A stretch of 64,000 nt of DNA, taken from Marinomonas pollencensis. GTDB taxonomy: Bacteria > Pseudomonadota > Gammaproteobacteria > Pseudomonadales > Marinomonadaceae. The notes beneath the pieces are model-generated. The model was not told the origin of the DNA. It made no database searches and saw only the letters and a list, made by a program, of their open reading frames with translations. Location: the NCBI RefSeq assembly GCF_003387375.1, contig NZ_QUNG01000013.1, forward strand, positions 1-64,000. Reading direction: 5' to 3'. Positions 1,404-12,398 of this stretch are shown here, one piece after another (positions within the stretch are counted from its first letter, which is position 1; every line of letters starts with the position of its first letter). Both the position numbers and the translations under genes were made by a program.

Positions 1404-1674
1404 ATCTGAACCGCCTTGAAAATGATCAATATAGGGTCGAGTTTTCTTTATTTTAGCAGCAAATATTTCGCTTTAACTGTGAGATATTTGTTAATGAGTG
1501 TTGAGTAAGGATGAGCCAGCAGAGCATTTCTAGCCACTGCAAACCAGTTTAGTAAGAGTGATTTGTCTCTCTGACCGATTTTTATGTCTCATCTATTGAA
1601 GATGACACTTTTTTATCGCTGCTTGAGTCGAGTATAATTGTGGCCCCTCCATCAACACGTTACGAAGCATTTTT
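1404..1674. other. Divergent intergenic region, M48 protease / dld
   Basis: 271 bp between the divergent starts of the M48 gene and dld. It is AT-rich and should hold both promoters. Only the dld -10 element is clear (separate entry). No hairpin, repeat or small ORF that I would support. Confidence 0.5.
1610..1638 (+). promoter_or_regulatory. Probable dld promoter
   Basis: A perfect -10 hexamer TATAAT lies at 1633-1638, 36 bp before the dld ATG. At the expected 17-bp spacing the -35 region (about 1610-1615) is only T-rich and a poor match. An activator or extended contacts may therefore be needed. Transcription would start near 1645, giving a leader of about 30 nt. Confidence 0.45.
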
Positions 1675-3411
1675 ATGACAGAATCCAGTTTCAGTTTAGA
1701 TTTGGCCGCTGAATTAAAGGCCATTGTAGGAAGTCAATATACCTTAATGGATGAAGACAAAAAGCAGCCATATTGTCAGGGTTTTCGTCTTGGTGGTGGT
1801 AATGCTTATGCGGTAGTGCGACCAGGCAGTTTGGTGGAGGTTTGGCAAGTACTAAAAGCCTGTGTGAAGGCGGATGTGATTGTCATTATGCAAGCGGCAA
1901 ACACCGGCTTGACTGGTGGTTCTACCCCTAATGGTACTGAGTACGACCGCCCAATTGTGATTATTAGCACTATGCGCATTAACGATATTCAATTGATCGA
2001 CCAAGGCAAACAAATTGTTGGTTTGGCTGGCAGTACTTTATTTGGCTTAGAGGAAACATTAAAGCCATACGGTCGCGAGCCTCATTCGGTGATAGGCTCG
2101 TCGTGTATCGGTGCGTCGATTGTTGGCGGTATTTGTAACAACTCAGGCGGGGCCTTGGTACAGCGTGGTCCTGCCTATACTGAAATGTCCTTGTTTGCTC
2201 AGGTGACAAGCGATGGCGAGTTAGAGTTGGTCAATAACTTGGGCATTGATTTAGGTGAAACACCGGAGCAGGTGTTAGAAAACCTTGGTAATCAAAATTA
2301 CCAAGAGAAAGACATTCATTTCCCCGATAAGCGGGGCTCGGATAATGAATACCAGCAACGTATTCGTGACGTCGATGCCGACACGCCTTCTCGCTTTAAT
2401 GCTGATGCAAGACGTTTGTTTGAAGCCTCAGGCTGTGCGGGTAAGTTGGCGGTTTTTGCGGTGCGTATTGATACCTTCCCGATCCCAGAAAAATATCAGG
2501 TGTTTTACATTGGCACTAACGATCCTGCGGTGATGGAAAAAATGCGTCGCGATATGTTGTCGACCTTTAAAAACCTTCCCGTGTCAGGGGAGTACATGCA
2601 CCGCAGTAGTTACGATATCAGTAAAAAATACGGTAAAGATAGCTTTTTAGTGATTGATAAATTAGGCACTAAATACATTCCTAAGATGTTTGCCTTGAAG
2701 CGTACTGTCGACCGTTGGGCAAGCAAATTTAAGTTTATGCCGAATAAATTTTCGGACCGTTTGATGCAGTACATTAGCCAAATGTTTCCGAATCATTTGC
2801 CGAAGCGAATGGAAGAATACCGTGATAAGTATGAGCACCATTGGATTGTAGAAACCAGTAACGATGGGGTAGCAGAAACCAAGGCCTATTTGGAAAGCTT
2901 CTTTAAAAGCAATGAAGGGGATTTCCTAGAGTGTACCGAGCGTGAAGCCGATCAAGCGTTATTACATCGTTATGTGACCGGTGGTGCATTGGGCCGTTAC
3001 CATGTAATGAATGGGAAGGATTTAGGTTCTATCATGACTATAGATGTGGCGTTCCCGCGAAATGAACAAGATTGGTTTGAGCAATTGCCGCCGGAGATCG
3101 ACGATAAAGTGGCGGTAAAAATGTACTACGGACATTTCTTCTGCCACGTGATGCATCAAAATTACATCATGAAAAAAGGCGTGGATGCGAAGGCGGTTAA
3201 AAAGCAAATCCTATCAAGCTATGACGCCCGTGGTGCTGAGTACCCAGCAGAACATAATGTTGGTCACGAATACATCGCAAAACCGGCGTTGCGTGAGTTT
3301 TATCAAAAAACGGACCCGACCAATAGTTTTAATGCAGGTATTGGTGGGACCAGTAAGCTGAAAAACTGGCAATCGCTGGACGATAAACATCAGGGTTGTG
3401 GCTGTAAATAA
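1675..3411 (+). CDS. dld: Quinone-dependent D-lactate dehydrogenase
   Basis: 578 aa, close to E. coli Dld (571 aa). The protein oxidises D-lactate to pyruvate and passes electrons to the membrane quinone pool; it is a peripheral inner-membrane FAD enzyme. The N-terminal half has the FAD-binding pattern of this family (RPGSLVEVWQVLKAC, NTGLTGGSTP, GSSCIGASIVGGICNNSGG). The C-terminal half is the membrane-associated domain with basic patches. The last residues are Cys-rich (GCGCK). Start: ATG at 1675 with a poor ribosome site. It stands alone between its own promoter and a strong terminator, so it is probably monocistronic. Confidence 0.95.
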   Translation: MTESSFSLDLAAELKAIVGSQYTLMDEDKKQPYCQGFRLGGGNAYAVVRPGSLVEVWQVLKACVKADVIVIMQAANTGLTGGSTPNGTEYDRPIVIISTMRINDIQLIDQGKQIVGLAGSTLFGLEETLKPYGREPHSVIGSSCIGASIVGGICNNSGGALVQRGPAYTEMSLFAQVTSDGELELVNNLGIDLGETPEQVLENLGNQNYQEKDIHFPDKRGSDNEYQQRIRDVDADTPSRFNADARRLFEASGCAGKLAVFAVRIDTFPIPEKYQVFYIGTNDPAVMEKMRRDMLSTFKNLPVSGEYMHRSSYDISKKYGKDSFLVIDKLGTKYIPKMFALKRTVDRWASKFKFMPNKFSDRLMQYISQMFPNHLPKRMEEYRDKYEHHWIVETSNDGVAETKAYLESFFKSNEGDFLECTEREADQALLHRYVTGGALGRYHVMNGKDLGSIMTIDVAFPRNEQDWFEQLPPEIDDKVAVKMYYGHFFCHVMHQNYIMKKGVDAKAVKKQILSSYDARGAEYPAEHNVGHEYIAKPALREFYQKTDPTNSFNAGIGGTSKLKNWQSLDDKHQGCGCK

Positions 3412-3443
3412 GCGCGCCTAGCGTTACAACTAGATGGGTTAGA

Positions 3444-3472
3444 AGCCGAGATGGATACGTCTCGGCTTTTTT
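3444..3472 (+). terminator. Rho-independent terminator after dld
   Basis: AGCCGAGA (3444-3451) pairs with TCTCGGCT (3460-3467) across an 8-nt loop and runs into six T residues. It lies 33 bp past the dld stop. Confidence 0.9.
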
Positions 3473-3612
3473 AGATTTGCCGCATAAGCTCTTTTATGGT
3501 GAATAAATGCCGTGGCACTTTTACGGGCAAGAATTGTCTATCTCATTTATGCTATGTTTTGCTTTATTATAGCTCGACTGTATTTTTGCTTTTACCTTGG
3601 AACCCAAAAATT

Positions 3613-4658: not shown

Positions 4659-5636
4659 ATGAACGCAGCAGAATTACATCAAAAAGCCATTGTGATCGAT
4701 GGTTTGATTTGTGCGAAGTGGAACCGTGAACTCTTTGAAGACATGGCCAAGGGCAAGTTAACTGCCGCTAATTGTACTGTGTCGTTCTGGGAAAACTTTG
4801 AAGGTACTGTTCGTAATGTGGTGGAAATGAATCAGTTGATCGAAGCTAACAGCGATTTATTAACCAAGGTTTATACCACCAAAGACATTTATCGAGCCAA
4901 AGCGGAGGGTAAGACAGGGGTCATGATGGGGTTTCAAAACGCCCATGCCTTTGAAGACCAAATTGGCTATGTACAAATATTTAAAGAGCTAGGCGTTGGA
5001 ATTGTTCAAATGTGCTACAACACGCAAAACTTAGTTGGCACAGGTTGCTACGAGCGTGATGGCGGTTTATCAGGGTTTGGTCGTGAGATTGTCGCTGAGA
5101 TGAACCGTGTTGGTATGCTGTGTGATCTCTCTCATGTGGGACCAAATACCGCAAAAGAAGTGATTCTTGAATCGAAAATGCCAGTCGCTTATTCCCATTG
5201 TTTGCCCTCAGGATTAAAAGAGCACCCTCGAAACCGCAGCGATGAAGAGCTTAGGTTCATCGCTGACCATGGTGGCTTTGTTGGGGTCACCATGTTTACC
5301 CCTTTCTTGCGTGCCGGCGTTAATGCCACAGTTGAAGATTATGTCGAAGCCATTCGTTATATCTACAACATAGTAGGTGAAGACGCCATCGGTATTGGCA
5401 CCGATTTTACTCAAGGTCACGGTGAAGACTTTTTCGAATATCTAACCCATGACAAAGGTTATGCCCGTCGTTTAACGCGTTTTGGGGAAATCATTAATCC
5501 GAAAGGCATTCGTACCGTAGGGGAATTTCCTAATTTAACCGAGGCGCTATTAAAAGGTGGTTTTAGCGAGCGCCAAGTAAGCAAGATCATGGGTGAAAAC
5601 TGGGTCTCCTTGCTGGAAAACGTCTGGGGCGAGTAA
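4659..5636 (+). CDS. Membrane dipeptidase (peptidase M19 / renal dipeptidase family)
   Basis: 325 aa, the size of bacterial M19 metallo-dipeptidases. Family landmarks visible are the N-terminal VIDGL strand, GFQNA, the MCYNTQN block, LCDLSHVG and AYSHCLPSG (metal-binding His residues), the ADHGGFVGVT block and GIGTDFTQGHG. In the usual family the early metal site is D-x-H-x-D. Here the matching stretch reads VIDGLICAKWN, without that His, so substrate or metal use may differ. First gene of the dimethylglycine operon, 6 nt before the next gene. Homologues sit in the same place in the Pseudomonas betaine locus, but their role there is not understood to my knowledge. Confidence 0.85.
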   Translation: MNAAELHQKAIVIDGLICAKWNRELFEDMAKGKLTAANCTVSFWENFEGTVRNVVEMNQLIEANSDLLTKVYTTKDIYRAKAEGKTGVMMGFQNAHAFEDQIGYVQIFKELGVGIVQMCYNTQNLVGTGCYERDGGLSGFGREIVAEMNRVGMLCDLSHVGPNTAKEVILESKMPVAYSHCLPSGLKEHPRNRSDEELRFIADHGGFVGVTMFTPFLRAGVNATVEDYVEAIRYIYNIVGEDAIGIGTDFTQGHGEDFFEYLTHDKGYARRLTRFGEIINPKGIRTVGEFPNLTEALLKGGFSERQVSKIMGENWVSLLENVWGE

Positions 5637-5696
5637 AACACAATGCCACCTAAAATGAATAAACACAGTGAAACAGTCACGGCAAAAGGAAAAATT

Positions 5697-6242
5697 ATGG
5701 GAACGCACGCACCAGAAATGCCAATTGAAGTGGACGATGAAACCGGTGTTTGGAATACCGATGCTTTGCCCATGCTGTACGTACCACGCCACTTTTTTGT
5801 TAATAACCATATGGGCATCGAAGCGGAGATTGGTGCGGAACGATACGCCGAAATTCTCTACAAGGCGGGTTATAAGTCGGCGTATTTTTGGTGTGAAAAG
5901 GAGGCCGAGCTACACGGTTTTACTGGCGATGAAGTGTGGCACCATTATTTAAAACGTCTGTCGCAACGCGGATGGGGGTTGTTTATTACCGAGGCCCTAA
6001 ACGTTGCAGAAGGAACGGCCAGAGTACGTTTAGAAAACTCCGCGTTTGTTTATCACTATCTGCAAGAGCATGGCGCCAAGGTGAATCGCAAAGTGGATTA
6101 TATGTTCACAGGTTGGTTTGCTGGTGCCCTGGACCAAGTGGCTGCCAGCCAAGGGTTAGCGGTGCGCAGCCAAGCCATTCAAACACAGAGTGCTGCAGAA
6201 GAAGGTTGTGATGTGGGCTATTTCTCTGTGTCACCGCGTTAA
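5697..6242 (+). CDS. V4R-like (DUF5943) protein of the betaine locus
   Basis: 181 aa from the ATG at 5697, chosen because AAAGG precedes it by a good distance; an in-frame ATG at 5643 would add 18 residues. The C-terminal part, ending EEGCDVGYFSVSP, resembles the end of V4R/4VR ligand-binding domains, which often bind hydrophobic molecules or metal. There is no signal peptide or membrane segment, so it is probably cytosolic. It sits between the dipeptidase and dgcA in what looks like one transcript. The likely family (DUF5943, seen in Pseudomonas betaine clusters) has no assigned function that I know of; a chaperone, sensor or carrier role are all guesses. Confidence 0.7.
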   Translation: MGTHAPEMPIEVDDETGVWNTDALPMLYVPRHFFVNNHMGIEAEIGAERYAEILYKAGYKSAYFWCEKEAELHGFTGDEVWHHYLKRLSQRGWGLFITEALNVAEGTARVRLENSAFVYHYLQEHGAKVNRKVDYMFTGWFAGALDQVAASQGLAVRSQAIQTQSAAEEGCDVGYFSVSPR

Positions 6243-6288: not shown

Positions 6289-8364
6289 ATGTCCCAGTAT
6301 GATGCGTTATTCGAGCCACTCAAGATCAATAAATTAACGATACGCAACCGTATTGTTAGTACGGCTCACGCGGAGGTCTATGCAACAGATGGCGGGATGA
6401 CCACCGACCGCTATGTGAAATATTACGAGGAAAAAGCCAAAGGTGGATGCGGGCTGTGTATTTGCGGCGGCTCCAGTGTGGTGTCGATCGACAGCCCGCA
6501 AAGCTGGTGGAGTTCGGTGAACCTGTCTGTCGACCGTATTATTCCGCATTTTCAAAACCTAGCCGACGCTGTGCATAAGCACGGTGGCAAGATCATGATT
6601 CAAATTACCCACATGGGGCGCCGCTCCCGCTGGGATGGTGAAAACTGGCCCAGCCTGATGTCGCCGTCGGGTATCCGTGAACCCGTCCATCGGGCGACTT
6701 GTAAAACCATCGAAGTAGAAGAAATTTGGCGTATTGTGGGGGATTTCGCTCAAGCCGCGCGCCGTGCCAAAGAAGGCGGGTTAGACGGTGTTGAGCTGTC
6801 TGCAGTACACCAACATATGATCGATCAGTTCTGGTCACCACGAGTTAATAAGCGTACCGATGAATGGGGCGGGACTTTTGAAGGGCGAATGAAATTCGGC
6901 CTAGAAGTGCTCAAAGCGGTGCGCGCAGAAGTCGGTCCAGACTTTGTTGTGGGCCTGCGTATTTCTGGTGATGAATTCCACCCAGATGGTTTGAATCACG
7001 AGGACATGAAACAGATTGCCAAATACTTTAACGACACCGGCATGATCGATTATTTCGGTGTGGTGGGATCGGGGTGTGATACGCACAATACCTTGGCCAA
7101 TGTGATTCCTAACATGAGCTATCCTCCTGAGCCATTTTTACATCTTGCGGCTGGGATCAAGGCAGTCGTCGATGTGCCTGTGATTCATGCGCAAAATATT
7201 AAAGACCCAAATCAAGCCAAGCGAATTATTGAAGGAGGGTATGTGGATTTTGTTGGTATGACGCGCGCGCACATTGCCGATCCGCATTTTATCGCCAAAA
7301 TCAAGATGGATCAGGTGGATCAAATTCGCCAGTGTGTTGGTGCAAATTACTGTATCGACCGTCAATACCAAGGTTTGGACGTGCTCTGTATTCAAAATGC
7401 AGCGACCTCTCGAGAGTACATGGGGCTGCCCCATACCATTGAGAAAACCAGTGGTGTAATTCGTGAGGTGTTGGTAATTGGTGGTGGACCAGGAGGAATG
7501 GAAGCCGCTCGCGTGGCCGCAGAGCGCGGACATAAAGTCACGCTAATTGAAGCGGCGTCTGAATTAGGTGGGCAAATTAATTTAGCGGCAAAAGCGCCAC
7601 AGCGAGATCAAATTGCGGGCATCAGTCGCTGGTTAATTATGGAGTTAGAGCGTTTAGGCGTGACGATTCGAGTTAATACCGCTGCGGATGAATCTCTGGT
7701 AACCAGTTTGGCGCCTGACGTTTGTATTTTGGCAACGGGAGGGCGCCCTTTCCTTGAGCAGAACCCAGAGTGGGGAGCGGAAGACGACTTGGTGGTATCC
7801 ACTTGGGATATTTTAAGCGGCAAGGTCGAGCCTGGTAAAAATGTACTGATCTACGACACGATTTGCGAATTTTCTGGTATGTCTGCCGCGGATTATTTGG
7901 CGGCAAAAAGGGCCTTGGTGGAACTAGTAACGGACGACATCAAGCCTGGGGTGGGCATTGGTGGCACTACGTTTCCGACTTACTATCGTTCGCTGTATGA
8001 GCAAGAAGTTATTATGTCTTCAGACCTCAAATTGGAAAAAGTCTATCGTGAAGACAGTCATTTAGTGGCGCTGTTAGAAAATGAATACACCGGCCAGCAA
8101 GAAGAGCGGGTGGTTGATCAAGTGGTGATTGAAAACGGAACCCGCCCGAATGAAGACTTGTACTACGCGTTAAAAGCAGCGTCTTGCAATAAGGGGCAGA
8201 TTGATATGCAAGCCTTGTTTGATATCGAGCCACAGCCAGTGCTTAAGGCGCAGGGTGATGAGGCAGTGGATGGCATGATTCTATGGCGGTTAGGGGATTG
8301 TGTGTCACAGCGAAATATCCATGCGGCGCTATACGATGCTTTGCGCCTTTGCAAAGACCTTTAA
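6289..8364 (+). CDS. dgcA: Dimethylglycine demethylase subunit DgcA
   Basis: 691 aa. Architecture of the trimethylamine dehydrogenase / 2,4-dienoyl-CoA reductase group: an N-terminal FMN-binding TIM barrel (~1-345, with ITHMGRRSRWDG and SAVHQHMIDQFWSP), an iron-sulfur segment (349-367), then a pyridine-nucleotide/FAD fold starting VLVIGGGPGGMEAARVA (~396). With DgcB it demethylates N,N-dimethylglycine to sarcosine and formaldehyde. The iron-sulfur segment reads C349-V-G-A352-N-Y-C355 then C367. Trimethylamine dehydrogenase has a fourth Cys where this protein has Ala352. Good ribosome site AAGGCGGGG. The next gene starts 32 nt downstream. Confidence 0.9.
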   Translation: MSQYDALFEPLKINKLTIRNRIVSTAHAEVYATDGGMTTDRYVKYYEEKAKGGCGLCICGGSSVVSIDSPQSWWSSVNLSVDRIIPHFQNLADAVHKHGGKIMIQITHMGRRSRWDGENWPSLMSPSGIREPVHRATCKTIEVEEIWRIVGDFAQAARRAKEGGLDGVELSAVHQHMIDQFWSPRVNKRTDEWGGTFEGRMKFGLEVLKAVRAEVGPDFVVGLRISGDEFHPDGLNHEDMKQIAKYFNDTGMIDYFGVVGSGCDTHNTLANVIPNMSYPPEPFLHLAAGIKAVVDVPVIHAQNIKDPNQAKRIIEGGYVDFVGMTRAHIADPHFIAKIKMDQVDQIRQCVGANYCIDRQYQGLDVLCIQNAATSREYMGLPHTIEKTSGVIREVLVIGGGPGGMEAARVAAERGHKVTLIEAASELGGQINLAAKAPQRDQIAGISRWLIMELERLGVTIRVNTAADESLVTSLAPDVCILATGGRPFLEQNPEWGAEDDLVVSTWDILSGKVEPGKNVLIYDTICEFSGMSAADYLAAKRALVELVTDDIKPGVGIGGTTFPTYYRSLYEQEVIMSSDLKLEKVYREDSHLVALLENEYTGQQEERVVDQVVIENGTRPNEDLYYALKAASCNKGQIDMQALFDIEPQPVLKAQGDEAVDGMILWRLGDCVSQRNIHAALYDALRLCKDL

Positions 8365-8396: not shown

Positions 8397-10343
8397 ATGG
8401 CGATTGACTGGTTACCTTCAGTATTGATTGTGACACTGCTTATATTGGCGGTGATTGGCGGTGTGCGGCGAGCCAATTTATGGCGTGCAGGGCAGCCAGA
8501 AAAAGTCGATATAGTGGCTGGCTTGTTGGCACTGCCAAAACGCTACTTGCAGGACCTTCATCATGTGGTTGCACGGGACAAATACATGTCTCAGAGCCAC
8601 GTTGCCACCGCCGGTGGTTTTGTCTTATCCATGATTTTAGTGCTCTTAGTGCATGTCTTTGGCGTCAGCAATCGGTTATTGGCAGGGGCGTTATTAGTGG
8701 CGTTAGGACTGATGTTTGTTGGTGCTTTATTTATCGCGAAACGTCGTTTACAGCCGCCTAGTCGGTTATCCAAAGGGCCTTGGATGCGCTTGCCGAAAAG
8801 CCTACTGACGTTTGCTGTGACATTTTTTGTACTGACGCTGCCCATGGCTGGAGTATTGCCTGAGGGGACTGGCAATTGGTTGTTAACGATGATTTTGTCG
8901 GCAGGCATCATTATCAGCTTGTCGGAGCTGCTGTTTGGTATGACGTGGGGCGGGCCGATGAAGCATGCTTTTGCGGGGGCGTTACACCTTGCTTTCCACC
9001 GTCGTCCGGAGCGATTTGGTGGTGGTCGTTCGACTGGATTGAAGCCCGCAGCCTTGGGGGGAGAGGTTCATGGGGTGGCCAAACCGAGTGATTTCAAATG
9101 GAATCAATTGCTGGGTTTTGATGCGTGTGTACAGTGTGGCAAATGCGAAGCCATGTGCCCCGCGTTTGCCGCAGGGCAACCATTGAATCCAAAGAAGTTG
9201 ATCCAAGATATGGTGGTGGGCTTGGCGGGCGGCACAGATGCTAACTACGCTGGCAGTCCTTATCCAGCTGGTAAAGGCGAGGCCAGAGCGTTAGGCAGTG
9301 CCAAAGGCGGGGCCGATAATGTGATCACCGCAGGTTTGGTTGATGCCGATACTTTATGGTCTTGCACCACATGTCGCGCCTGCGTAGAAGAGTGTCCGAT
9401 GATGATTGAACACGTGGATGCCATTGTGGATATGCGCCGCTTTGTAACGATGGAAAAAGGCCAAACCCCTAATAAGGGGGCGCAGGTGTTAGAAAATATA
9501 ATTGCCACCGATAACCCCAATGGCTATGCCCCAGGGAGCCGAACCCATTGGGCTGCTGACCAGAACCTGCCTTTGATGAAAGATAAGCAGCAAGTGGATG
9601 TATTATTTTGGGTGTCTGATGGCGCTTTTGATATGCGCAGTCAGCGTATTCTTCGCGCTTTTGTGACGCTTATGAAAGCCGCTAAGGTGGACGTGGCTAT
9701 CTTGGGTGACGAAGAGCGCGACTGTGGCGATGTAGCGAGGCGGTTAGGCGATGACGCCAGTTTTCAGAGTTTGGCGAAGCGTAATTTGGCCACACTGTCG
9801 CAGTATAAGTTCAACAAAATAGTCACTACTGATCCCCATGCTTACCACTGCTTGCGTAATGAATACAGTGACTTGGATGTGAATGGGGTGCTTTCTCAAG
9901 GGGCATCAGGACAAGCTGTTGAGGTGCTTCATCATACGACTTTTTTGAATCATTTGGTTGAACAAGGCTTGCTTAATTTTGAGCGCTTTAGTGACACCCG
10001 GATGACTTACCATGACCCTTGTTATCTAGGTCGTTATAACGGTGAATACGAAGCACCTCGTGAGCTGTTGCGTTCGTTAGGCATTAATATTACCGAGATG
10101 GCCCGCTCCGGCTACCGTTCTCGCTGTTGTGGCGGTGGCGGCGGTGCACCGATTACCGATATTCCAGGAGAGCGTCGTATCGCCGATATGCGCATGGCCG
10201 ACGTCACTGAGACCGGCGCTGAGCTGGTGGCAGTTGGCTGTCAGCAATGCACAGCCATGTTGGAAGGGGTGGTTGAACCTCGACCAGTGGTGAAAGACAT
10301 TGCGGAAATTCTGGTAGGGCAGTTGATTGAGGAGGTCCATTGA
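8397..10343 (+). CDS. dgcB: Dimethylglycine demethylase subunit DgcB, membrane iron-sulfur protein
   Basis: 648 aa. The N-terminal third has about five hydrophobic segments (residues ~4-21, 63-83, 89-106, 128-147, 158-178), anchoring it in the inner membrane. Then come two ferredoxin-type motifs (CVQCGKCEAMCP and CTTCRACVEECP) for two [4Fe-4S] clusters. The C-terminal half is a heterodisulfide-reductase-like Cys-rich domain (DPCYLGRYNGEYEAPRELL, CCGGGGG, GCQQC). The design suggests electron relay between DgcA, the ETF and the quinone pool. GAGGA site 7 nt before the ATG. Its TGA overlaps the ATG of the next gene (TGATG), so the two are translationally coupled. Confidence 0.88.
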   Translation: MAIDWLPSVLIVTLLILAVIGGVRRANLWRAGQPEKVDIVAGLLALPKRYLQDLHHVVARDKYMSQSHVATAGGFVLSMILVLLVHVFGVSNRLLAGALLVALGLMFVGALFIAKRRLQPPSRLSKGPWMRLPKSLLTFAVTFFVLTLPMAGVLPEGTGNWLLTMILSAGIIISLSELLFGMTWGGPMKHAFAGALHLAFHRRPERFGGGRSTGLKPAALGGEVHGVAKPSDFKWNQLLGFDACVQCGKCEAMCPAFAAGQPLNPKKLIQDMVVGLAGGTDANYAGSPYPAGKGEARALGSAKGGADNVITAGLVDADTLWSCTTCRACVEECPMMIEHVDAIVDMRRFVTMEKGQTPNKGAQVLENIIATDNPNGYAPGSRTHWAADQNLPLMKDKQQVDVLFWVSDGAFDMRSQRILRAFVTLMKAAKVDVAILGDEERDCGDVARRLGDDASFQSLAKRNLATLSQYKFNKIVTTDPHAYHCLRNEYSDLDVNGVLSQGASGQAVEVLHHTTFLNHLVEQGLLNFERFSDTRMTYHDPCYLGRYNGEYEAPRELLRSLGINITEMARSGYRSRCCGGGGGAPITDIPGERRIADMRMADVTETGAELVAVGCQQCTAMLEGVVEPRPVVKDIAEILVGQLIEEVH

Positions 10344-11638
10344 TGAATGACTTCTCCTCTGTCGCTGTGTCCCCTGTGGGGGTGGTACGGCGTGATCCGC
10401 GTAAAGAATGGATGGCTCGAAATCGCTTACACCCACGACATCATGAGGTGATTAGCGAAGGCGTCGGCGGCGAGATGGGGGCAAATGGCTTAATGCGTAG
10501 AAACCCACGTCAAATCGGGTTTATTGGCCCTAATGGTATTAAGCGCATTGATCGCCTCAAAGGAAATGCAGTTCAGACGCCCAATAAACGACAATCGGTA
10601 GTGCCAGAAGTCGTGTTGCCATGGCATGTAGTCGCCACGGCAGATTTCTATATTTTCGTGGTGCCGGATATGGTGGGGGGGCGATTATCTGGCCATGACA
10701 AAGACATATTAGGCCTGGCTCATCGCTTACAAAAGGAAATAGCAGGACAAGGTGCGGTGGTGGCGGTGTGCTTTGGTGAAGTCAAAGAAACACAGTTTGA
10801 GTTGGCTGGAGTGGATCGCTTGGTGCACTTTGCAGGCGCTGAGTTTGAGGGCTTTGCAGCAGAAGCAAAAGCCGCCGCGTTGGCTGCTATGGACGAACGA
10901 TGGGCACCAAAACACTGGCTGTTTCCTGATAGCATTCATGGTGGTACAGATTTGGGCTCTCGTCTTGCGGCTGAGTTAGGAGAGCGGCCGGCGACGCAAG
11001 CATGGCAAGTGGATCTGGAAAAAACCGTCGCTCGTGGCGCAGGGGGGAGCCTTGATATAAGCCGAGCCACGCCACGTATTTTATTCTTGCTAGAAGAATG
11101 TGCGTACCCCATTGATGAAACGCGTCATCAAGTTTTATCTCTAGAGATGCCTGAGGTACAGCGTCCTGCGCCGCGCTTACTTGACCAAGGGTTAGTGGCT
11201 GTCGACCCGAATGAAATTCCATTGGCTGAAGCCGAGTTCATATTGTCGGCAGGCAATGGCATCCATAACTGGGCGCAATTTCACCAGACTGCTAAGGCGT
11301 TAGGCGCCACGGAAGGAGCGAGTCGAGTGGCGGTTGATGATGGTTTTATGCCACGTTCTCGTCAAGTGGGCGCATCGGGCACCTGGGTGACAGCGCGTGT
11401 TTACATAGCCGTGGGCATTTCAGGGGCAATCCAGCATCTACAGGGGATTGCCCAGTGCGACAAAATCATAGCGATTAACACTGATGCAGGTTGTGACATG
11501 GTAAAACGAGCGAATTTAGCTGTGATTGACGACAGTGATGCGATTTTGTCTGCCTTGATGATGTTAGCGAACGAGAAGCTTGTTGAGCCCGGTGCTGTTC
11601 AAGGAAACACTAACAAGGAGGACAGCGATGCCGCTTAA
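10343..11638 (+). CDS. Electron transfer flavoprotein alpha subunit of the dimethylglycine operon
   Basis: 431 aa from the ATG at 10343, preceded by GGAGG at 10331-10335. A TTG three bases upstream is also in frame but less likely. The C-terminal FAD-binding domain is clear (RQVGASGTWV, YIAVGISGAIQHLQGI, IIAINTDAGCDMVKRANL). Usual ETF-alpha proteins have about 310 residues. Here about 95 extra N-terminal residues, rich in Arg, His and Gly, precede the FixB-like domain beginning near VVATADFYIFVV. The gene overlaps dgcB and the ETF-beta gene, which ties this ETF to dimethylglycine oxidation. Confidence 0.88.
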   Translation: MNDFSSVAVSPVGVVRRDPRKEWMARNRLHPRHHEVISEGVGGEMGANGLMRRNPRQIGFIGPNGIKRIDRLKGNAVQTPNKRQSVVPEVVLPWHVVATADFYIFVVPDMVGGRLSGHDKDILGLAHRLQKEIAGQGAVVAVCFGEVKETQFELAGVDRLVHFAGAEFEGFAAEAKAAALAAMDERWAPKHWLFPDSIHGGTDLGSRLAAELGERPATQAWQVDLEKTVARGAGGSLDISRATPRILFLLEECAYPIDETRHQVLSLEMPEVQRPAPRLLDQGLVAVDPNEIPLAEAEFILSAGNGIHNWAQFHQTAKALGATEGASRVAVDDGFMPRSRQVGASGTWVTARVYIAVGISGAIQHLQGIAQCDKIIAINTDAGCDMVKRANLAVIDDSDAILSALMMLANEKLVEPGAVQGNTNKEDSDAA

Positions 11639-12398
11639 TATTGTGTCTTTGGTGTCAGTGGGCCGCCACCCTCAGTCGGGGCGGTCGCGACGTGCTGAAC
11701 AAGATGGCCGTGCTGTCGAAATGGGGTTGAAGCTTGCAGGTCAGCAATTATCAGTGGTTCATGTGGGCAACCCTGATGAGCCAGTTTTACGTCAATATGC
11801 AGGTATGGGACTATCGTCTTTAACGGTTTTAAAACAAGCAGATAGATTTGATGCTGTGCCTGTTCTGCAGCGTTATTTAGAACAAAAAAACATCGACATA
11901 GTGCTCACTGGAGTCCGTAGTGAGAGTGGTGAGTCGTCTGGTATGGTGCCCTATTTATTAGCACATGCTTTAGGTTGGCCAGTGGTGGCTCGAGTAGCAG
12001 ACATTGTGTGTGTAGAAAAGGGGGAGGCGCAGGTGTTATTGGCGTTACCACGGGGTCAACGCCGTGCGGTGCGAGTTGCATTACCCTTTATTGCTAGCCT
12101 GGATTTGGCTGCCCCCCCTGCGCGTCAAAGTGCGTTTGGGGTCGGCTTACGGGCCAAAATAGAAACCATTGAGAGTATTGGAGAAGTAGACCAGATTCGT
12201 GTAGATTGGCAAGAGGCTGAGGCAAAACCTCGTGCCAAACGTCTTAAAACGGTAAAAGCGAAAACCGCTGCCGAACGCTTTAAGGCGGCCACAGCAAAAC
12301 CGCAAGGTGATGCTGGCAAGGTGCTGATAAACGAAACGACGCAACAAAAAGCACAAGCTATTTTTGATCTATTACTGGAAGAGAAAGTGATTCGCTAG
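11628..12398 (+). CDS. Electron transfer flavoprotein beta subunit of the dimethylglycine operon
   Basis: 256 aa from the ATG at 11628, which follows AAGGAGGA and lies inside the last codons of the alpha gene (11-nt overlap). The frame opens earlier, at 11580, but that start has no support. The sequence follows the FixA fold: LVSVGRHPQSG, RRAEQDGRAVEMGLKLA, DIVLTGVRSESGESSGMVPYLLAHALGWPVV. The C-terminal quarter is unusually rich in Lys and Ala (~200-245). With the alpha subunit it would carry electrons from DgcAB toward ETF:quinone oxidoreductase, which is not in this window. Confidence 0.87.
   Translation: MPLNIVSLVSVGRHPQSGRSRRAEQDGRAVEMGLKLAGQQLSVVHVGNPDEPVLRQYAGMGLSSLTVLKQADRFDAVPVLQRYLEQKNIDIVLTGVRSESGESSGMVPYLLAHALGWPVVARVADIVCVEKGEAQVLLALPRGQRRAVRVALPFIASLDLAAPPARQSAFGVGLRAKIETIESIGEVDQIRVDWQEAEAKPRAKRLKTVKAKTAAERFKAATAKPQGDAGKVLINETTQQKAQAIFDLLLEEKVIR

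Follow-up and report, generated by a model that had tools for sequence, protein, structure and literature searches.

A DgcA clade that aligns a small non-polar residue with the second cluster cysteine of trimethylamine dehydrogenase

We find that the predicted dimethylglycine demethylase subunit DgcA of Marinomonas pollencensis carries alanine at the position where trimethylamine dehydrogenase (TMADH) has the second of its four cluster cysteines, and that this trait, judged from aligned sequences, is one of a whole clade and not of this protein alone. Across the clade, which takes in DgcA, HpbA-like proteins and others, the second cluster cysteine appears to have given way to a small non-polar residue that has been fixed since the clade's ancestor. 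We give about an even chance to the joint reading that this is a clade of three-cysteine proteins, that the remaining cysteines hold a cluster, most likely [3Fe-4S], and that electrons run from FMN through the cluster and the electron transfer flavoprotein (ETF) to DgcB. TMADH is the model for electron transfer from flavin to iron-sulfur cluster to ETF. Among the matches listed from the open-licence literature, taken by their titles and the starts of their abstracts, none takes the cluster of DgcA or HpbA as its subject.

The dgcA locus and its cluster motif

The window, by which we mean the whole 64,000-nucleotide stretch analysed (positions 1 to 64,000 of contig NZ_QUNG01000013.1), holds the following features around dgcA.

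4659-5636, + strand: dipeptidase-like gene, conserved upstream of dgcA (59 of 67 loci)
5643-6242, + strand: DUF5943 gene, directly upstream of dgcA (61 of 67 loci)
6289-8364, + strand: dgcA, predicted dimethylglycine demethylase flavoprotein subunit, 691 aa, TMADH/DCR fold
7333-7389, + strand: three-cysteine cluster motif C349-V-G-A352-N-Y-C355-x11-C367
7342-7344, + strand: codon 352, GCA (Ala), aligned with TMADH C348
8397-10343, + strand: dgcB, with a DUF3483 domain, two four-cysteine ferredoxin-type motifs and two CCG domains
10340-11638, + strand: etfA, electron transfer flavoprotein alpha
11628-12398, + strand: etfB, electron transfer flavoprotein beta

The protein is 73-88% identical to those of Pseudomonas, Halomonas, Marinomonas and other named loci (the best 80 of 571 relatives), and its gene lies in the order pepD, hypothetical gene, dgcA, dgcB and etf genes by which DgcA is recognised. 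An excerpt of PMC12093977 describes this order for P. aeruginosa and V. natriegens, identifies the dipeptidase-like gene upstream of dgcA as pepD in the latter, and reports that a V. natriegens dgcA deletion did not grow on dimethylglycine. By sequence and operon, then, the window protein is DgcA, its P. aeruginosa counterpart being compared through the published gene order. We also note that the DUF5943 gene is present in 61 of the 63 loci at which DgcA identity is about 59% or more.

Translation of positions 6289-8361 on the + strand gives the motif listed above, with the codons of C349, C355 and C367 starting at 7333, 7351 and 7387. In phmmer alignments to solved structures A352 pairs with C348 of TMADH and with C337 of E. 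coli 2,4-dienoyl-CoA reductase; counted on the alignment to DgcA, the TMADH motif consists of C345, C348, C351 and C364, so that the third and fourth cysteines are separated by x12 in TMADH as against x11 in DgcA. The initial annotation had proposed that DgcA lacks one TMADH-type cluster cysteine and has alanine (GCA) at 352, and the residues are exactly as it described.

The second-cysteine position across relatives

Relatives were gathered from the class, from named genomes, from plasmids and from the phylum, as well as from an actinobacterium (Ornithinimicrobium, L117), its order and 20 further regions. The named-genome set, being the best 80 of 571 relatives, favours close ones, and the class-wide search mostly scored 4 candidates per genome. 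For the alignment an open frame had to run to 480 codons or more and have 350 or more query residues aligned to it; removal of identical rows then left 151 of 153. In an earlier 128-row set three rows, namely L131, L134 and a second reading-frame piece of L089, did not cover the motif and were left uncounted. Two of the homologues are interrupted, that of L089 being split between two reading frames and that of L009 carrying an in-frame TAG, and each may be a sequencing error or a pseudogene.

At positions 349, 352, 355 and 367 the 151 aligned rows read CACC in 102, CCCC in 45, and CVCC, CGCC, CCTC and CNCC in one each. All but two of the CACC rows (100 of 102) fall in one clade, the other two being L153 and L191. 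This clade has 102 rows, the window's own and many near copies among them, 81 of the rows coming from 80 named loci (again the best 80 of 571); L214, which also has alanine, and L151 lie outside these 102. Within the clade, position 352 is alanine in 100 rows, valine in one and glycine in one, with cysteine in none, so the check proposed in the initial annotation, whether Ala352 is conserved among aligned relatives, comes out positive; among 29 clade representatives below 72% identity the figures are 27, one and one. None of the 102 rows has lost C349, C355 or C367, even where identity with DgcA is as low as about 40%. Both cysteine codons are found at all three of these sites, and codon 352 is GCC in 64 rows, GCG in 24, GCT in 7, GCA in 4 and GTC in 1, as read in 100 of the 102 rows (L018 and L019, which did not match the pattern used, were left out). 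The use of all four alanine codons for an unchanged residue argues for selection on residue 352.

The neighbouring position behaves differently in the two groups: the residue after the second cysteine is asparagine in 38 of 39 four-cysteine representatives, whereas in the 29 clade representatives the residue after 352 is glycine in 9, asparagine in 8, threonine in 8, serine in 3 and alanine in 1, a variety that fits a relaxed corner of the site. In 4 of the 102 clade rows (L103, L039, L018 and L019) only 7 or 6 residues, in place of 11, separate the third cysteine from the fourth, and the cysteines are kept.

A branch with an SH-aLRT of 100 sets the clade apart, and the value stays at 100 without the motif columns and without L153, L022 and L157. 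The trees, which were of a quick kind, place 4 changes of second-cysteine state in the first and 3 in the second (from which L153, L022 and L157 were removed), only 2 of them forced by starred branches. L153 and L191, two distant proteins outside the DgcA/HpbA clade with alanine at the second-cysteine position, are possibly independent losses of uncertain placement; in the first tree L153 joins L022, another long row, which leaves it uncertain whether L153 and L191 lost the cysteine separately.

Other variants were seen among the more distant relatives. L020 (positions 1495-3489) keeps the second cysteine and lacks the third, and is thus a different three-cysteine variant. L199 (positions 565-2796, in genome G121) is a TMADH-like protein with asparagine in place of the second cluster cysteine; it is about 72-73% identical to the four-cysteine proteins L196 and L198, the latter encoded in the same genome. 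The asparagine of L199 may mean that the site tolerates change without a common cause. A search of viral contigs with L199 returned no relative; within its order, where 3 genomes were searched at E 1e-150, the only hits were two copies, both in its own genome.

The probable cluster and the likely route of its electrons

That DgcA holds a cluster, and of which type, we infer from its sequence, and on our analysis the reading to be favoured is a three-cysteine cluster, most likely [3Fe-4S], with a [4Fe-4S] cluster bearing a non-cysteine ligand as its close rival. A cysteine elsewhere in the protein that could stand in for position 352 was considered and rejected: outside the three motif sites, no column has cysteine in more than 19 of the 29 representatives. 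Among other side chains H300 (101 of 102 rows), D306 (102 of 102) and H382 (98 of 102) are conserved within the clade but less common elsewhere, and on that pattern they are candidate cluster ligands.

[3Fe-4S] is placed somewhat ahead because alanine, valine and glycine offer no ligand, and because the other rows without the second cysteine do not share H300 or H382. We consider it a real possibility, though one we would not bet on, that DgcA has a [4Fe-4S] cluster whose fourth iron is bound by water or hydroxide, by a small molecule or by a side chain of the His/Asp type. The predicted fold is TMADH-like, the three conserved residues just named could serve, and precedents exist: an excerpt of PMC11138216 treats as well known those three-cysteine [4Fe-4S] clusters in which water, a small molecule or Asp is the ligand, the examples being aconitase, RirA and a P. 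furiosus ferredoxin with Asp, and PMC13111528 describes exposed [3Fe-4S] clusters as able to bind a fourth metal. Against such a cluster, the residue at 352 leaves nothing coordinating in the motif in any of the 102 rows, and the particular side chains fare unevenly. Glutamine replaces H382 in 4 of the 102 rows and H300 in 1; L153, L191 and L199, which are without the second cysteine, have no histidine at 300 or 382; and L199 shares D306 with the four-cysteine proteins L196 and L198. A His/Asp compensation common to the rows without the second cysteine was looked for in the alignment and not found.

It is improbable that DgcA has no cluster, with the three cysteines being structural or serving another metal and electrons leaving the flavin directly. 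One ligand is indeed missing and the shortened loops of four rows would be compatible with this, but the three cysteines align with known cluster ligands and persist throughout the clade, and no other cysteine is equally conserved. Their retention in every clade row makes loss of the cluster unlikely, as does our expectation that further cysteines would have been lost over the depth of the clade had the cluster gone. We attach a negligible probability to A352 being a sequencing or assembly error, or drift in a single genome, an explanation refuted by the clade survey: alanine throughout the clade, written in varied codons, excludes a sequencing error in the window genome. The initial annotation had left three outcomes side by side, namely loss of the cluster, a [3Fe-4S] cluster and an outside ligand; loss now appears the least likely of them, and the other two both stand.

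More speculatively, and in our view rather doubtfully, the clade may have a site-differentiated cluster and make use of its open iron, or of its empty corner, either for a higher potential towards ETF or for binding a ligand, for instance the substrate carboxylate, water or a metal. Were this so, the activity of DgcA-clade proteins would respond to iron or oxygen, and loss of the second cysteine would be adaptive and repeated in the superfamily (in the DgcA clade, and perhaps in L191, L153 and L199).

Returning to the favoured three-cysteine cluster, electrons from FMN would pass singly through it to ETF (EtfA/EtfB), which would in turn feed the EtfD-like DgcB and then the quinone pool; in relatives without DgcB an ETF-quinone oxidoreductase (ETF-QO) would be used instead. 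We regard the route from FMN through cluster and ETF to DgcB as likely. An excerpt of PMC8097209 gives the TMADH cluster as the site of electron transfer to ETF. P. aeruginosa DgcB is described in an excerpt of a 2026 EMBO J paper on EtfD (PMC13083937) as an EtfD homologue without the cysteines of cluster D1, and the suggestion made there is that it accepts electrons from ETF. That suggestion and the presence of ETF genes next door make ETF the likelier direct partner of DgcA, and EtfA/EtfB is thus its likely direct electron acceptor. In the window DgcB one CCG domain is intact (C542, C577, C578, C615 and C618) and the second is degenerate, with only C443 and C485 left, which agrees with the lack of EtfD D1 ligands given in the same excerpt.

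Gene neighbourhoods bear on the same question. Where dgcA is about 48% or more identical (67 loci), dgcB accompanies it in 65, etfA in 64 and etfB in 63; where dgcB or etfA is missing (L047, L054 and L089), the locus sits on a short contig or at a contig end, and in L086 etfA was found and etfB was not at the cut-off used. The 13 HpbA-like loci (43-47% identity) all keep the three-cysteine site and are without dgcB, etfA or etfB neighbours. With a threshold of E 1e-40, DgcB is matched in only 1 of their 13 genomes, though several of these are incomplete metagenome bins, in which the absence of DgcB may reflect that incompleteness. ETF-QO (PF05187) was found in 11 of the 13; G306, in which DgcB was matched, gave no hit to ETF-QO, and the small genome G326 (1.8 Mb) has neither. 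We take ETF to be the probable common partner. The window's own genome has three ETF-QO matches, so that DgcB need not be the sole exit for ETF electrons even there.

A general link between the alanine and DgcB was considered and rejected, the three-cysteine site being present also in HpbA-like relatives without DgcB. The idea that the missing cysteine would change how electrons pass to DgcB is accordingly not supported as it was put forward, given the single DgcB match among the HpbA-like genomes; nor does direct passage from DgcA to DgcB sit well with the suggestion, in the excerpt of PMC13083937, that DgcB takes its electrons from ETF.

Comparison with related flavoproteins and iron-sulfur sites

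An AlphaFold2 model of DgcA (pLDDT 94.3) superposes on TMADH (2tmd/1djn) with a Z of 55.6 and an rmsd of 1.8 A over 651 residues. The two proteins align along the whole DgcA chain, from the FMN-binding barrel to the nucleotide-binding domains that follow it, and share three of the four cluster cysteines. They differ in that DgcA lacks the C-x2-C-x2-C-x12-C motif, having A352 for C348, and in that DgcA A28 aligns with TMADH Cys30. Cys30 of TMADH binds FMN covalently, and with A28 in its place the FMN of DgcA is probably non-covalent. Although these two TMADH features are missing, DgcA probably works like TMADH, an amine demethylase whose electrons pass to ETF, as described in PMC8097209; the same is presumed for DgcA. 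If TMADH cousins of the betaine pathway, which occur in Pseudomonas, Halomonas, Marinomonas, Paraburkholderia, rhizobia and others, do use a three-cysteine cluster, then the [4Fe-4S] assignment should not be copied over to them, and the pair of TMADH and DgcA would be a natural experiment on the role of the fourth cysteine in potential, oxygen tolerance and choice of partner.

The best two sequence matches in the PDB, the 2,4-dienoyl-CoA reductase FadH (1ps9) and 2-naphthoyl-CoA reductase (6qkg), cover the same domain span as DgcA but have the second cysteine, with C-x2-C-x3-C spacing, and are reductases, not demethylases; the four-cysteine OYE-FeS motif C-x2-C-x3-C-x11-C is absent from DgcA. 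The best NCBIfam match, the mycofactocin family OYE_2 (TIGR03997), scores DgcA at 532.8 bits, below its curated cut-off of 793.15, and the three matches above that cut-off in 79 genomes (L211-L213) all have four cysteines. HpbA, annotated as N-methyl-L-proline N-demethylase on a plasmid of Paracoccus sp. Arc7-R13 (L037), is about 43% identical to DgcA, reads CVGANYC and belongs by alignment to the same clade; it differs in its annotated substrate and in having no dgcB or etf gene annotated within the surrounding 10 kb.

A likeness of another kind is found in SdhB, which is not a relative. SdhB and FrdB bind their [3Fe-4S] cluster through a pattern C-x2-(non-polar)-x2-C...C, with I or V as the non-polar residue, and it is by analogy with this site that [3Fe-4S] is favoured for DgcA. 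SdhB of the Marinomonas pollencensis genome has C-x2-I-x2-C-x3-C beside a site of the four-cysteine type. As in DgcA, a non-polar residue replaces the second cysteine (C-x2-I-x2-C), whereas SdhB is of another protein family and its last two cysteines stand x3 apart, compared with x11 in DgcA.
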